Positions 4,335-9,824 of a stretch of DNA of 34,548 nt are shown in pieces (positions within the stretch are counted from its first letter, which is position 1; every line of letters starts with the position of its first letter). The position numbers and the translations under genes are program-made. The DNA is from a virus, in the IMG/VR virus record IMGVR_UViG_3300021964_000246, positions 1-34,548 of that record, one strand, 5' to 3'. A model generated the notes under the pieces. The model did no database searches, was not told where the DNA came from, and saw only the letters and a program-made list of their open reading frames with translations.

Positions 4335-6071
4335 TTAAGTGGTGCCTCCACCGCCTGGTGTAGTTCCTGGTGTGCCTGTGTTACCCGTAGGACCAGTAGC
4401 ACCCGGGGTTCCGCTCTGAGATTCAGGCTGTGGTGAGTCTGGACTTGCCTCTGGTTCGGCAAATTGATCAAGATCTGCTTGTATGCCGGCCTGTGATACG
4501 CCTGCTGTTCTCATCTGTGTTGATTTTGTCTGTTTTTTCTGTGCTACATTGTTTTCTTCCGCCCAGAGTTGTGAGTTTTGTGCCATTTCTTCTTCGGTCA
4601 TGCCCAGGAATCTTTTTAACGCAAACCTTTTGGACATGTAAGGCAGTTCGGCAATCTGAGTAAATGTGCCTACCCTTTGCTGATCCATTTCTGTTTGCCT
4701 GTACTGAGCAAAGTTTTGTGGCGGATTTAATTTGATCTCAAACATAGAGTTGTCAATGGTGTAGCCTTTGTTCTTTATCCAAAGTTTGAACTCCTCGTCA
4801 AAAATTGGAGCCACCATGGACTGCAGTCTCTGACAGTATTTGTTGAATCTCAATTCCTGTATAAATGCTGTGCCCACTCTGCCGTCATTGTATTGTTGTT
4901 GCGAATCATCCGGTCCTGTGGGTAGGTACGACGATGGAATACGCAAACCTCTGAAAAGTTTATTTGTGAAATATCTTAAGTCGTCGATCTCGCCTAGGTT
5001 AGTTCCTCCCGGCAATGTGTCGACTTTAGAACCACGTCCTTCTGCCGTCTGTGGGAAGAAGTAATCCTCGTTGATAGACATTGGGTTATAAGTGGCATCA
5101 ACGTAGTTGACTCCACCGGATGTGCTAGGAATTCTTCTTTGGTTGATTTCGTTTTTGACTCTCTCAACGAACTGCATCGCCAAGTGTGTTGGCATGTTAC
5201 CAACATCTATGTAAAACACTCTACGTTCTGGTGCTCTCTGAACCCTGTAGATAATGATTGCGTCCTCCAGAAGTTCTTTTTGCTTGTACACCTTGAAGAT
5301 CTGTTCAAGTATGGATTGTCCAAAAGGGAATAAGTTGTCTAGTCCATCACTTAAACTCATGTGTACCACGTGTTCGGCATTGATCGCATACTGATTCATT
5401 GTACGATAAAATCTGCCTCCCTGTCCTCCCGCGGCACCCATTCCTGAATTTATGTTACTGCCATAACCTGCCGATGAATAGTTTGCACTGTAAGGTCCGC
5501 TAGCGGTTCCTGTGCCACCATACACCTGATTGGGTGTTACCTGCGTTGCTGATAATCTCTGCAGGTTTGGATTGATGTCTCTGATTATGTATTGTTCCGG
5601 TACCTTGCCCTCCGATTCGTTAACTATGATTCTGTCGACCTTTGCCGCATCAACGTAGAGCCATTTGTTGGTCTCTGGATCTCTCACAAAGAAGCAGTCG
5701 CCGTATTTCAGTACGTTACGAAATATTCTAAATGTTCTTTTTTTGAATTGGTTTGATCGTGTCCACTGCTGTAGGGCCTTCTTGAGTAATTTAACTTCTG
5801 ATTCTGTGACGTCATCTTTGAACACCAAATCAAATGGTGTTTCATTTTCCTTGTTGGTCTGTGTACAGAATTCTGCCAGTATGTCTAGGGCCGCATTGAC
5901 CTCCGAATCAGAATCCATCTGATCGTACTGGAAGTATCTTTGTATCCTGTTAGGGTGTCCGGTATAGACGTCCGGTAGATAAGAACTGTAGTTCCTTTTT
6001 GAGAATTGTGGATTTCTATCTCCTGCTATGGGAGATAAGTTTGCGTCTTTAAAATATTTTTTCCAAGCCAT
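4335..6071 (-). CDS. 20: Portal vertex protein gp20
   Basis: 578 residues (T4 gp20: 524). Family hallmarks are visible: the N-terminal YFQYDQMDSDSEVNAALDIL, the central VERVKNEINQRRIPSTSGG, DYFFPQTAEGRGSKVDTLPG, LGEIDDLRYFTNKLFRGL with RIPSSYLPTG, and FNKYCQRLQSMVAPIFDEEFK. The portal is the dodecameric ring through which DNA is packaged and to which the neck attaches. There are two additions: a Gly/Ser/Tyr-rich insertion at about residues 186-225 and a C-terminal tail of about 35 residues rich in Pro, Gly and Thr with Gly-X-Y triplets. It lies 9 bases downstream of the tape measure gene, and is followed by the small operon genes. Confidence 0.95.
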   Translation of the reverse strand: MAWKKYFKDANLSPIAGDRNPQFSKRNYSSYLPDVYTGHPNRIQRYFQYDQMDSDSEVNAALDILAEFCTQTNKENETPFDLVFKDDVTESEVKLLKKALQQWTRSNQFKKRTFRIFRNVLKYGDCFFVRDPETNKWLYVDAAKVDRIIVNESEGKVPEQYIIRDINPNLQRLSATQVTPNQVYGGTGTASGPYSANYSSAGYGSNINSGMGAAGGQGGRFYRTMNQYAINAEHVVHMSLSDGLDNLFPFGQSILEQIFKVYKQKELLEDAIIIYRVQRAPERRVFYIDVGNMPTHLAMQFVERVKNEINQRRIPSTSGGVNYVDATYNPMSINEDYFFPQTAEGRGSKVDTLPGGTNLGEIDDLRYFTNKLFRGLRIPSSYLPTGPDDSQQQYNDGRVGTAFIQELRFNKYCQRLQSMVAPIFDEEFKLWIKNKGYTIDNSMFEIKLNPPQNFAQYRQTEMDQQRVGTFTQIAELPYMSKRFALKRFLGMTEEEMAQNSQLWAEENNVAQKKQTKSTQMRTAGVSQAGIQADLDQFAEPEASPDSPQPESQSGTPGATGPTGNTGTPGTTPGGGGTT

Positions 6072-6080
6072 GCTGTTATT

Positions 6081-8279
6081 TTACACTGAAAAATCTAAAT
6101 CCGCAATAGAATTTTTCACCTCATTTGATTTTTGTAATTGTTTGTTGCTGATCATCACAATGCTATTTAAATGTTTTTCACTCTTTACCAGTATTTCATT
6201 CATTGATGATAGATTGGTGCCCAGTTGGGTCATCATCCTGGACATTTCTGCTCGATTGGCGGTTTCTGTCACTGAGTTTACGGTGGTATCTTTGGATGCC
6301 ACTTGATTTTTGGTTACTAATGGCACTATCTCACCCGATTGTCCCGGTACGAAAAGTTCTGGTTTTCCACCTTCGCCCACCAAGTAAGGCTGTCCTCTGT
6401 TTACGCTTCCTCCCGTTTCTCTGCCTTCTACCATGCTACCCAGAGCCTGTCCTGCCATTGATCCCAGTGATGCTCCTATGGCGACTCCCATTGGTCCACC
6501 GACCAATCCCAATAGACCGCCTGCCACACCACCGACCAAACCAAGTATTCCTTGTGAGTCGTTGCTTTTGTCTTCGTCGAACAACTGGTATGCTGATGTT
6601 CCTAATCCTATGGCGGCACCTGCGTATGGTAGTCCCCTGCCTATAACGGCCAGGCCTCTGCCCATGGTGCCGAAGCCTCTGGTCAATGTGCCACCAAACG
6701 CTCCCAGAGAATTCTGTAGCCCGACATTACCTATCTTTGTTCCCAGGGCCACTATAGACACCTCCTTGGCAAAATTGACTGTGTACTTGGCCGCGTTGGC
6801 CGCCAGCACAGCGGTCGCTACCTTGCCGGGATTCTCCATGGTGAACTTGGCTATTGCGTTGGCCACATTCTGGAAACTGTCATTGGCGCCACCCAGGAAG
6901 TTTGAGAACGCAGTTGGCAAAGCGGACAAGAAACTTGTCTGGATGCTTTCGAATGAAGATTTCAATCTTCTGCTTGAATCCTGGAACTCCACCAACTCCT
7001 TGGTTAGTTCGTTTGCCTGTGCCGACTGTTGGGTATACGCGGCGTTAAGATCCAACGATAAATTTCCTAATTTGAGAACAGCGTTGGCGGCACCTGCTAG
7101 ATCACCTGCCAATAAAGTGGCCGCTCCCGAGGTCCCTCTAAATCTTTCATTGAATGCCCTGCCCGACATCGTCAACGCCTGCAGTGTCGCGGTCACATCC
7201 CCGGATTGCTTGAATGCCAGGATAGCATCTTGGAATCCCGGAGCCAAGGCAACAAGTTGTTGCCCTAGGTCATCCAATGGCACTCCGGTGGCCAATAGGT
7301 TTTTGGCGGTTTCACCGAGTGCAGGATTGACGGCACTCAAGGTTGCTATAAGGTTCTGTGTTGTCCTGGCTTGTTCGTCGCTGAGGCTACTCAGGAAGGC
7401 CTGGAACACAGCATCGTCCTGTTGTGCCCTGACCTGCTTGTCGAGTTCGGTGTTCTGGATACCGGTCAGCCTCGACAACAGGTTAAGTTCTTTTGCGTAT
7501 GCTATCACCGAAGTGGTGGCACTCTGTTGTGTGACCAGTGCGGCCCTGCCTTGGATCCTCTGTCTGCTTAGATAGGTTCCCAAGAATTCGTTCAACTGGT
7601 CTGTGGTTATACCAAGTTCGAAAAGATCTGTCTTGGCCCTGGATCTTATGGATTCAGAAAACAGGGCGAGGTTGTTGGTACCCTGATTGACTGTGCCAAA
7701 TAAGGCGGCCAATGTCTGACTATTTTCTGCCACCAGGTCCTTGAATTCTTCGATCGGTAACTGCGCCGCCCTGGCTCCTTCTCGTAGGCCCACGAGGCTT
7801 TTGCCAAAATCAGCACCAACGCTGGCCAACGAAATGAAATTATCTATGTTGTAGTCCAGGCTCTTGGCAAGTCCACTTATCGGACCAAACGCTGTGTCCT
7901 CTAGGGCTTTGGTAAAGTATCCAAGCCTTGTGTATCCGGTGGTTGTGGCATCACCTAAATTAATGAATTGACCAACGGTGTCGGTTATTGCCGATGAATA
8001 TTTTTTAAGTGTGTCTTTCGCAAGTTTTTTTGTTGCATCATCAAACGACTTCAGGCTGTCCTCGGCCGACTCCACTGCCAGCGTGACTTTTTTGAATTCT
8101 TTGGAATTTTGGTTAAGGTCCTTGAGAAGTGTCTTTCTTCTTTCTATTTCTTTTTGGATAAGGTCTCTGGCCTGTCTTCTGCTCGCGGCATCGCTGGTGG
8201 AGACTTTGGCCAGTGCCGCTATGCTTTTGTTAAGTTCCCTAAGATTCTTTTCCAGTTCTAAACTGACATCCTCAGCCAT
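6081..8279 (-). CDS. Tail tape measure protein (role of T4 gp29)
   Basis: 732 residues. Residues 1-110 are a charged coiled coil and the middle is Ala/Leu/Gln-rich helix. Around 545-615 is a Gly/Ala-rich hydrophobic stretch (GLVGGVAGGLLGLVGG) that could span a membrane. Residues about 615-653 hold the C-terminal signature of many phage tape measure proteins: TGGSVNRGQPYLVGEGG, then KPELFVPGQSGEIVP. Tape measures set tail length and are injected ahead of the DNA. T4 gp29 is 590 residues and encoded among hub genes; here the gene lies beside the portal gene and is divergent from gp26/gp51, its likely chaperones. The start ATG is preceded by a weak AGGGA site 12 bases away. Base use is GC-richer than in the neighbouring gp22/gp67 genes. 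Confidence 0.85.
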   Translation of the reverse strand: MAEDVSLELEKNLRELNKSIAALAKVSTSDAASRRQARDLIQKEIERRKTLLKDLNQNSKEFKKVTLAVESAEDSLKSFDDATKKLAKDTLKKYSSAITDTVGQFINLGDATTTGYTRLGYFTKALEDTAFGPISGLAKSLDYNIDNFISLASVGADFGKSLVGLREGARAAQLPIEEFKDLVAENSQTLAALFGTVNQGTNNLALFSESIRSRAKTDLFELGITTDQLNEFLGTYLSRQRIQGRAALVTQQSATTSVIAYAKELNLLSRLTGIQNTELDKQVRAQQDDAVFQAFLSSLSDEQARTTQNLIATLSAVNPALGETAKNLLATGVPLDDLGQQLVALAPGFQDAILAFKQSGDVTATLQALTMSGRAFNERFRGTSGAATLLAGDLAGAANAVLKLGNLSLDLNAAYTQQSAQANELTKELVEFQDSSRRLKSSFESIQTSFLSALPTAFSNFLGGANDSFQNVANAIAKFTMENPGKVATAVLAANAAKYTVNFAKEVSIVALGTKIGNVGLQNSLGAFGGTLTRGFGTMGRGLAVIGRGLPYAGAAIGLGTSAYQLFDEDKSNDSQGILGLVGGVAGGLLGLVGGPMGVAIGASLGSMAGQALGSMVEGRETGGSVNRGQPYLVGEGGKPELFVPGQSGEIVPLVTKNQVASKDTTVNSVTETANRAEMSRMMTQLGTNLSSMNEILVKSEKHLNSIVMISNKQLQKSNEVKNSIADLDFSV

Positions 8280-8309: not shown

Positions 8310-8317
8310 TATAAATA
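8310..8317 (+). promoter_or_regulatory. Perfect T4-type late promoter TATAAATA for gp26
   Basis: The plus strand reads TATAAATA, the exact T4 late consensus. It lies 41 bases before the gp26 ATG at 8359. A start site about 6-8 bases downstream would give a leader of roughly 35 bases that includes an AGGA ribosome site at 8351-8354. Confidence 0.75.
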
Positions 8318-8343: not shown

Positions 8344-8351
8344 TATTTATA
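8344..8351 (-). promoter_or_regulatory. Perfect T4-type late promoter TATAAATA for tape measure/portal genes
   Basis: The plus strand reads TATTTATA, so the minus strand is the exact late consensus TATAAATA. It lies 65 bases upstream of the tape measure ATG (8279). It faces the plus-strand late promoter at 8310-8317, so the two transcripts would overlap at their 5' ends by a short stretch. Confidence 0.7.
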
Positions 8352-8358
8352 GGATAAA

Positions 8359-9213
8359 ATGACAGCGGAAAACCCATTATCGAAATATTATAGACAGCCG
8401 TCCGTCTACATCACTTTGCCCAGCAAAGGGCGTTATTATGATTCAACGGTATTGAAAACCACAGAGACCGGTGAACTGCCGGTGCTTCCCATGAACGCCA
8501 AGGACGAGTTGACCTTCAAAACACCCGATGCCATGATGAGCGGACAAGCCACAGTCGACGTCATCAAGAGTTGTATCCCGAACATCTTGGATCCATGGAG
8601 ATTGGTGAACTACGATCTCGACACTGTGCTGTTGGCGATCAGGATCGCCAGTTACGGCGAAAGCATGGATGTCACGTTCAACGTGCCCGTGATTAACGAA
8701 AAAGTTTCTCACAGCGTCAACCTCCCTGCTTTGTTGGAATCTGTGACAAGCGTGTCGATAACAGACGAGGCCAAAACCACAGCGGGATTTGTTATCAAGT
8801 TCAGACCACTGACATTCAAAGAGATAACCAAGAATCAAGTTGCCGCATTCCAACAGCAAAAAACCTACGCCAATGTGTTGGCCAGTAGTGCCACCGACGA
8901 GGAAAAGAGCAAAAAATTTGCCGAAAGTTTCAAGGCTCTCACAGATTTAAATTTTGATGTTTTGTTGAACGGTATAGAATCCATAACAACACCGGACGGA
9001 GACACCGTGACCGACAGCAAATCCATAGATGAATTCATATCGAACAGCGACAGCAGATTGGTAACCGAGATCCAGGACAAACTTACCCAGATCAGGGCAC
9101 AGGCCAGTTTCAAACCATTGAGTTTCAAATCCACCGAGGAACAGATCAACAAAGGAGCGCCGGTAAACTACGAAGTGCCGTTGACGTTTGACAACTCAAA
9201 TTTTTTCGGATAA
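8359..9213 (+). CDS. 26: Baseplate hub/tail assembly protein gp26
   Basis: 284 residues (T4 gp26: 208). It resembles the T4-type gp26 family in the opening YRQPSVYITLPSKGRYY and in MNAKDELTFKTPDAMMSG, VIKSCIPNILDPWRLVNYD, and LDTVLLAIRIASYG. In T4, gp26 is needed for hub formation around the tape measure; related two-gene arrangements in other tailed phages act as tail assembly chaperones. The start has AGGA 4 bases upstream and a perfect late promoter before it. The last codons contain the slippery heptamer A AAT TTT, after which the -1 frame is open into the next gene (see separate entry). Assignment is from family knowledge. Confidence 0.85.
   Translation: MTAENPLSKYYRQPSVYITLPSKGRYYDSTVLKTTETGELPVLPMNAKDELTFKTPDAMMSGQATVDVIKSCIPNILDPWRLVNYDLDTVLLAIRIASYGESMDVTFNVPVINEKVSHSVNLPALLESVTSVSITDEAKTTAGFVIKFRPLTFKEITKNQVAAFQQQKTYANVLASSATDEEKSKKFAESFKALTDLNFDVLLNGIESITTPDGDTVTDSKSIDEFISNSDSRLVTEIQDKLTQIRAQASFKPLSFKSTEEQINKGAPVNYEVPLTFDNSNFFG
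9198..9204 (+). promoter_or_regulatory. Candidate -1 ribosomal frameshift site (A AAT TTT)
   Basis: In the gp26 reading frame the bases read TC[A AAT TTT] TTC GGA TAA, an exact X XXY YYZ heptamer ending 9 bases before the gp26 stop codon. After a -1 slip the frame reads TTT CGG ATA AAA CTT TTA TCA ATG without a stop straight into the gp51-like gene. A 6-bp AT-rich inverted repeat (GATAAA at 9209-9214, TTTATC at 9218-9223) starts 4 bases downstream; it would be a weak stimulator at best. The fusion would have about 359 residues. Confidence 0.6.
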
Positions 9214-9224
9214 AACTTTTATCA

Positions 9225-9437
9225 ATGCCGGATTCTGACATCATGTCATATCTTAAGGATCTCGAGAAAGAAGGCAAGAATATCAAGCACGAACTTTTCA
9301 AGATATGTTGGTTCATGAGGGGAGGGGTAACTTACCAAGAGGCACTCAACATGGACTACGGAGAAAGGGAGATTATATCCCAGATAATCAAGGACAACCT
9401 GGAAACCACCAAAAAAAGTGGTCAACCATTCTTTTAA
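9225..9437 (+). CDS. 51: gp51-like hub assembly protein / tail assembly chaperone
   Basis: 70 residues if read from its own ATG; MSYLKD at 9243 is an alternative start. The core ELFKICWFMRGGVTYQEAL and DYGEREIISQIIKDNLE, then KKSGQPFF, resembles the short gp51 protein that follows gp26 in T4-like marine phages. The pattern also resembles the second part of frameshifted tail chaperones: Trp plus RGG, then a conserved acidic helix. Neither possible ATG has a visible ribosome-binding site, which fits translation mainly through a -1 frameshift from gp26. In T4, gp51 promotes hub assembly and is not in the particle. Family naming is moderately sure; the chaperone role is inferred. Confidence 0.7.
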   Translation: MPDSDIMSYLKDLEKEGKNIKHELFKICWFMRGGVTYQEALNMDYGEREIISQIIKDNLETTKKSGQPFF

Positions 9438-9497: not shown

Positions 9498-9824
9498 ATG
9501 AGCAACAAAGATCTAGTGTCGGAATTAAAGGCACACATCAAAGAACTCTCAGCGGAAAAAGATGCATTGGTGAGAACCGTCACGATCAAGGACAGCAGGA
9601 TAAAACAACTGTTGCTCAAGATCGAGGACGCCAACGACGAGGTCAAGAGCACAGTCAAGAAAATGGAAGAATACAAAAATGAGACAGCAGATGCCAACGA
9701 GGAAGTGGAAAAGATGAAAAAGAAGATCAAGACCATCAAACACAACCTAGGGGCAGATGTGCTCAGAGACGATTTAAATGACCAAGACCAAACCAACGCC
9801 CAAGACACTGCACAGGAAGACTAA
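9498..9824 (+). CDS. Coiled-coil protein of unknown function
   Basis: 108 residues, nearly all predicted helix: heptad-like spacing through LVSELKAHIKELSAEKDALV, LLLKIEDANDEVKSTVKKME and VEKMKKKIKTIKHNLG, with an acidic Gln/Asp-rich tail. No enzyme motif. Its 3' end overlaps the next gene by 47 bases in another frame. The best ribosome site (AGAGGAGA at 9475-9482) is 15 bases before the ATG, which is unusually far. It sits just after the tail chaperone genes and could be a structural or scaffold-like factor, but no family is recognised. Confidence 0.65.
   Translation: MSNKDLVSELKAHIKELSAEKDALVRTVTIKDSRIKQLLLKIEDANDEVKSTVKKMEEYKNETADANEEVEKMKKKIKTIKHNLGADVLRDDLNDQDQTNAQDTAQED

Follow-up and report, generated by a model that had tools for sequence, protein, structure and literature searches.

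In phage lambda, the tail assembly chaperone pair gpG/gpGT is produced at the slip site G GGA AAG, and tail assembly depends on a fixed ratio between the short and the long form. For phage P2, which has a contractile tail, the E/E+E′ pair reportedly arises through a −1 frameshift on the T-rich heptamer T TTT TTG, an account attributed to Christie et al. in 2002. As for the T4-like phages, the abstract of a 2022 study by Vladimirov and colleagues is said to describe a frameshift conserved in several T4-like groups, with T4 itself using the separate genes 26 and 51. Vladimirov, Gautam and Davidson (2022, Virology 566:9-15) are reported to have established which proteins act as tail assembly chaperones in T4-like phages. 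Of the papers that cite this work, PMC12846349 states that poly-T −1 signals are known from TAC-N genes in this phage group, and PMC10885494 that some T4-like phages have short and long gene copies in place of frameshifting. T4 gp26 and gp51 are also listed as hub assembly chaperones in a 2010 review (PMC3004832).

Here we analyzed a 34,548-nt stretch of DNA from an uncultured marine virus (IMG/VR record IMGVR_UViG_3300021964_000246, positions 1 to 34,548; hereafter the window), and propose, with a probability of roughly 95%, that a single tail assembly chaperone gene makes up its gp26/gp51-like region and gives two products via a −1 frameshift. The gp26-like gene, encoding the predicted short chaperone (TAC-N) of 284 aa, lies on the plus strand at 8359..9213, and its 3′ end reads AAC TCA AAT TTT TTC GGA TAA, in which the codons from TCA to TAA occupy 9196-9213. 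Two overlapping heptamers of the X XXY YYZ type were found in the gp26 frame near this end: A AAT TTT (9198..9204, plus strand) and, starting 3 nt further downstream, T TTT TTC (9201..9207, plus strand). From 9192 onward, the −1 frame meets no stop codon before the TAA at 9435-9437, in agreement with the initial annotation, and from CGG at 9207 it encodes a 76-aa C-terminal tail (TAC-C, gp51-like; 9207..9437, plus strand) that is conserved in 94 relatives. In the fusion, F283 of gp26 would be joined to RIKLLSMPDSDIM..., giving 283 + 76 = 359 aa, the length that had been estimated at about 359 residues.

The first ATG of the −1 frame opens a 70-aa ORF (9225..9437, plus strand) that has no ribosome-binding site, and a Shine-Dalgarno-like 4-mer was found in the window upstream of neither this ATG nor the second one at 9243, as had been noticed before; this ORF is therefore probably not started on its own, judging from its sequence context. 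No match to PF12322 was obtained with the window tail ORF, and the phrog search with the 70-aa ORF returned only phrog_37855, at an E of 0.07, which was not used. Directly after the tail gene, a 108-aa coiled-coil-like ORF (9498-9824, plus strand) was observed, whose family matches were weak and non-specific.

The gp26-like product belongs to the T4 baseplate family, with a PF12322 (T4_baseplate) match at E 4.5e-15 and 56.4 bits against a curated cut-off of 24.5, and with a match to phrog_150 (baseplate hub) at E 2e-18. Its AlphaFold2 model (8359-9210) reached a pLDDT of 86.7, and comparison of the model with BFVD matched T4-like hub proteins, and annotated tail assembly chaperones weakly. Similarly, the scores of gp26 against chaperones outside the T4-like phages were weak (phrog_1749, E 0.03; PF16459, E 0.07; a Molivia TAC in BFVD, E 0.02), lambda-type chaperone homology stayed below significance in the profile searches of the window proteins, and searches by sequence and by fold gave no convincing match among solved structures. 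The fold matches in BFVD also included uncharacterised proteins of ~450-690 aa from jumbo phages such as phiEaH2, RP12, Special G and Eowyn, and this suggests, on the strength of the predicted model, that a gp26-type chaperone may form part of larger proteins in these phages.

The presumed client of such a chaperone is encoded next to it. A tape measure protein gene of 732 aa (6081..8279, minus strand; phrog_167 tail length tape measure protein, E 4.7e-15) adjoins gp26 but is divergently transcribed from the opposite strand, a small correction to the initial annotation. A chaperone role for the gp26/gp51-like products is suggested by the family to which they belong, by the neighbouring tape measure gene and by the published work on T4-like phages.

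The region between these two genes contains the only two exact matches to TATAAATA, a T4-type late promoter element, in the window, arranged as a divergent pair: one directed toward gp26 (8310..8317, plus strand) and the other toward the tape measure gene (8344..8351, minus strand). Among 93 relatives, the plus-strand motif was found in 59 (0.17 expected) and the minus-strand motif in 49 (0.29 expected), with both present in 37. The two motifs of a pair were 31-36 nt apart in 36 of these 37, and a start-to-start spacing of 32-33 nt, approximately three helical turns, was observed in 32.

To compare the junction across related phages, relatives were collected by protein patterns that did not include the gp26 end and near-duplicates were removed, which left 94 loci. 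A T TTT TTY heptamer in the gp26 frame, located 7-40 nt before the gp26 stop and with the −1 frame staying open from it to the tail, was found at all 94 non-redundant loci, in the form T TTT TTC in 89 and T TTT TTT in 5; hence, the persistence of an X XXY YYZ heptamer and an open −1 frame that the initial annotation had proposed to look for was seen throughout (94/94). In 35 of the 94 relatives, the nearest ATG for the tail, if any, was more than about 25 codons away from the slip site, and in 17 the tail start lacked ATG, GTG and TTG alike, and a Shine-Dalgarno-like 4-mer preceded a tail start in only 10. Since a nearby ATG, or any of the three start codons, is missing in those relatives, independent initiation of the tail is not plausible in them. 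These counts bear on the reading that the region consists of two operon genes, with translational coupling or re-initiation starting the gp51-like protein at ATG 9225 or 9243, a reading to which the two ATGs in the window −1 ORF and the separate genes annotated in public records lend some support. Apart from the relatives devoid of start codons, it is opposed by the conservation of the tail protein sequence, which begins right after FF and thus upstream of both window ATGs, and by the freezing of the TTT TTC codons, which coupling would not bring about; we consider it very improbable.

The codon freeze was evaluated in 11 close relatives sharing 48-99% aa identity. Among 67 invariant gp26 residues with degenerate codons, only three keep a single codon, and these are the slip-site codons AAT, TTT and TTC. 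In addition, across 13 long window genes (6,731 codons in total) T TTT TTY occurs in frame a single time, at the slip site itself. Given the single occurrence of the heptamer, the frozen slip codons and the presence in 94/94 relatives, the observation is real and not a product of chance. The programmed −1 frameshift that had been proposed to join gp26 to the gp51-like tail, as in lambda G/GT, gains strong comparative support from the site and open frame at all 94 loci, from the 35 loci without ATG and from the fixed codons.

Which of the two overlapping heptamers is used is a matter of refinement more than of a full rival explanation, as slipping on either would yield the identical protein, ...DNSNFF followed by RIKLLSMPDSDIM..., so the window sequence alone does not separate them. 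The initial annotation had named A AAT TTT, which indeed lies in the gp26 frame at 9198-9204, is found in 62 of the 94 relatives and carries an AAT codon that is invariant among the 11 close relatives; the universal heptamer, however, is T TTT TTC, with T TTT TTY present in all 94 relatives, including the 32 in which A AAT TTT is absent, and with both the TTT and TTC codons invariant in the 11. Furthermore, a −1 slip at T TTT TTC leaves the P-site tRNA fully re-paired, whereas at A AAT TTT this tRNA would move from AAT to AAA and be mismatched at the third position. Because of its universality and the perfect P-site re-pairing, T TTT TTC (9201-9207) is likely the working slip site; A AAT TTT may assist slipping, and slipping at A AAT TTT instead appears unlikely.

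A run of six consecutive Ts also raises the question of transcriptional frameshifting, in which the polymerase would slip on the T-run and some mRNAs would carry an extra or a missing T. Bacterial polymerases are known to slip on homopolymers; six Ts, however, are short for such slippage, the phase always fits X XXY YYZ, and a C ends the T-run in most relatives (89 TTTTTTC, 5 TTTTTTT). The enrichment of downstream RNA hairpins in the family likewise fits ribosomal frameshifting, and slippage of the polymerase is, in our estimation, very improbable.

This enrichment was evident from the folding energies just downstream of the slip site, which had a mean z of −1.37 in the family compared with −0.29 and −0.33 in the controls; a z below −2 was obtained for 32% of the family and for 10% and 7% of the control stretches, and strong downstream hairpins were found in S-PM2 and Atu_ph07, among others. 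In the window, no stable downstream hairpin was found: a weak A/U hairpin at 9209-9223 folds no better than shuffles (z 0.12) and was rejected as a stimulatory element. Stable downstream RNA structure was also absent in several close relatives. A very stable two-part hairpin was observed just 3′ of the slip site in Atu_ph07 (positions 4826-4906 of the extracted locus, z −6.3 against shuffles), which is a candidate frameshift stimulator by its predicted folding.

What can be read directly from the DNA is a slip site and an open frame, that both are conserved, and that many relatives have no independent start for the tail; from here, we infer the slipping, its rate and the chaperone role, and expression by −1 frameshifting would proceed as follows. 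Most ribosomes would terminate at TAA 9211 and release the 284-aa short form (TAC-N), while a fraction would move back by one base at T TTT TTC (9201-9207), possibly aided by the overlapping A AAT TTT. The slipped ribosomes would read the −1 frame to 9437 and produce the 359-aa long form (TAC-NC) with its 76-aa C-terminal domain. On the model of lambda gpG/gpGT, both forms together may coat the neighbouring tape measure protein, keep it soluble and recruit tube subunits.

The arrangement was found in uncultured marine contigs, in the jumbo phages Atu_ph07, Phosso, PA5oct, 121Q, RaK2, GAP32, Munch, CBB, Kaldavass, Vibrio 2.275.O, RAS14 and XacN1, and in S-PM2, P-SSM2, the pelagiphage HTVC008M, Cr30, phiM12 and KVP40, thus including cyanophages. 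The public records examined either annotate two genes, as in S-PM2, KVP40 and 121Q, or omit the tail, and the KVP40 record remarks a similarity to ~40 residues at the T4 gp51 C-terminus. Accordingly, the "gp51", or the small hypothetical gene after gp26, in many public records would be the C-terminal part of a frameshifted chaperone, and one joined gene should be annotated. Rhodothermus phage RM378 (NC_004735; extracted locus, 1501-2390) differs in that its gp26 homologue ends TCC TTT TTT TGG ... TGA and the tail-like ORF that follows lies in an open frame at +1 (or −2) instead of −1, which suggests from the reading frames a different shift at the same T-run.

How the frameshifted gene relates to the two T4 genes was then examined by profile comparison. 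T4 gp26 (208 aa) and gp51 (249 aa) are paralogues, each of them a full PF12322 protein, and come, as the initial annotation had said, from separate genes, which lie on opposite strands. Along the 282 positions of phrog_150, T4 gp26 aligns to position 235 and gp51 to position 280, indicating that gp51 has an extra C-terminal tail. Phrog_634 is matched both by the −1 tails of cyanophages and by the C-terminal end of T4 gp51. Using hhalign, the window tail was linked to the jumbo-phage tails with a probability of 99.6, the jumbo-phage tails to the cyanophage tails with a moderate 47%, and the cyanophage tails to the T4 gp51 C-terminus with 90%; the direct comparison of the window tail with the T4 gp51 C-terminus was not significant (probability 0.2-6%), so that the link runs via the jumbo-phage and cyanophage tails. 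The 70-residue ORF designated gp51-like would correspond to the C-terminal end of T4 gp51 only and not to the whole protein. In the simplest reading of these alignments, T4 gp26 would be the counterpart of the short form, and gp51 that of the long form, which the window virus would make from one gene. Two full-length PF12322 genes of the T4 type were not found in the window, which holds one gp26-like gene and the −1 tail; as the window is a 34.5-kb fragment, a second copy may lie elsewhere in the genome.

The distribution of the frameshift fits an ancestral origin, and the 2022 study may cover part of this distribution. On balance we favour, with some reserve, the view that the T TTT TTY frameshift would have been present at the root of the entire T4-related assemblage, jumbo phages (280-490 kb) and uncultured marine clades included, that the unlinked gp26 and gp51 of T4 would be a derived replacement by gene duplication, and that RM378 would have kept the T-run and moved the tail to +1 (or −2). 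The proposed translational trick is conserved at the level of individual codons among very distant phages, and T4's two chaperones, long named hub subunit and hub assembly catalyst, can be set beside the single-gene frameshift version of the more distant relatives examined.

Both mechanism and role are already described for T4-like phages, and the window is a new example, not a new mechanism; the suggestion that gp26 and gp51 are the tape-measure chaperones of T4-like phages had reportedly been published before by Vladimirov et al. (2022). What is added here may be the breadth across uncultured marine and jumbo phages, part of which the 2022 paper may cover, together with the codon-level conservation and the corrected heptamer. 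A search for an open paper on frameshifting in the jumbo RaK2-like phages found none, which is not proof of absence. The window locus shares with the T4-like chaperones of Vladimirov et al. (2022) the protein family (gp26/gp51, PF12322) and, as predicted, a short and a long form, but its virus is uncultured and marine and stands nearer to Atu_ph07 and other jumbo phages than to T4. With T4 genes 26 and 51 it shares PF12322 membership; in T4, gp51 bears the extra C-terminal tail, and there are two separate full-length genes and no frameshift. P2 E/E+E′ resembles it in having a contractile tail and a T-rich −1 heptamer and differs in protein family, going by annotation alone. Lambda gpG/gpGT is alike in having a short form and a −1 frameshift long form beside the tape measure gene, and unlike in its slip site, in that no protein homology was detected and in that the window tape measure gene lies on the opposite strand.
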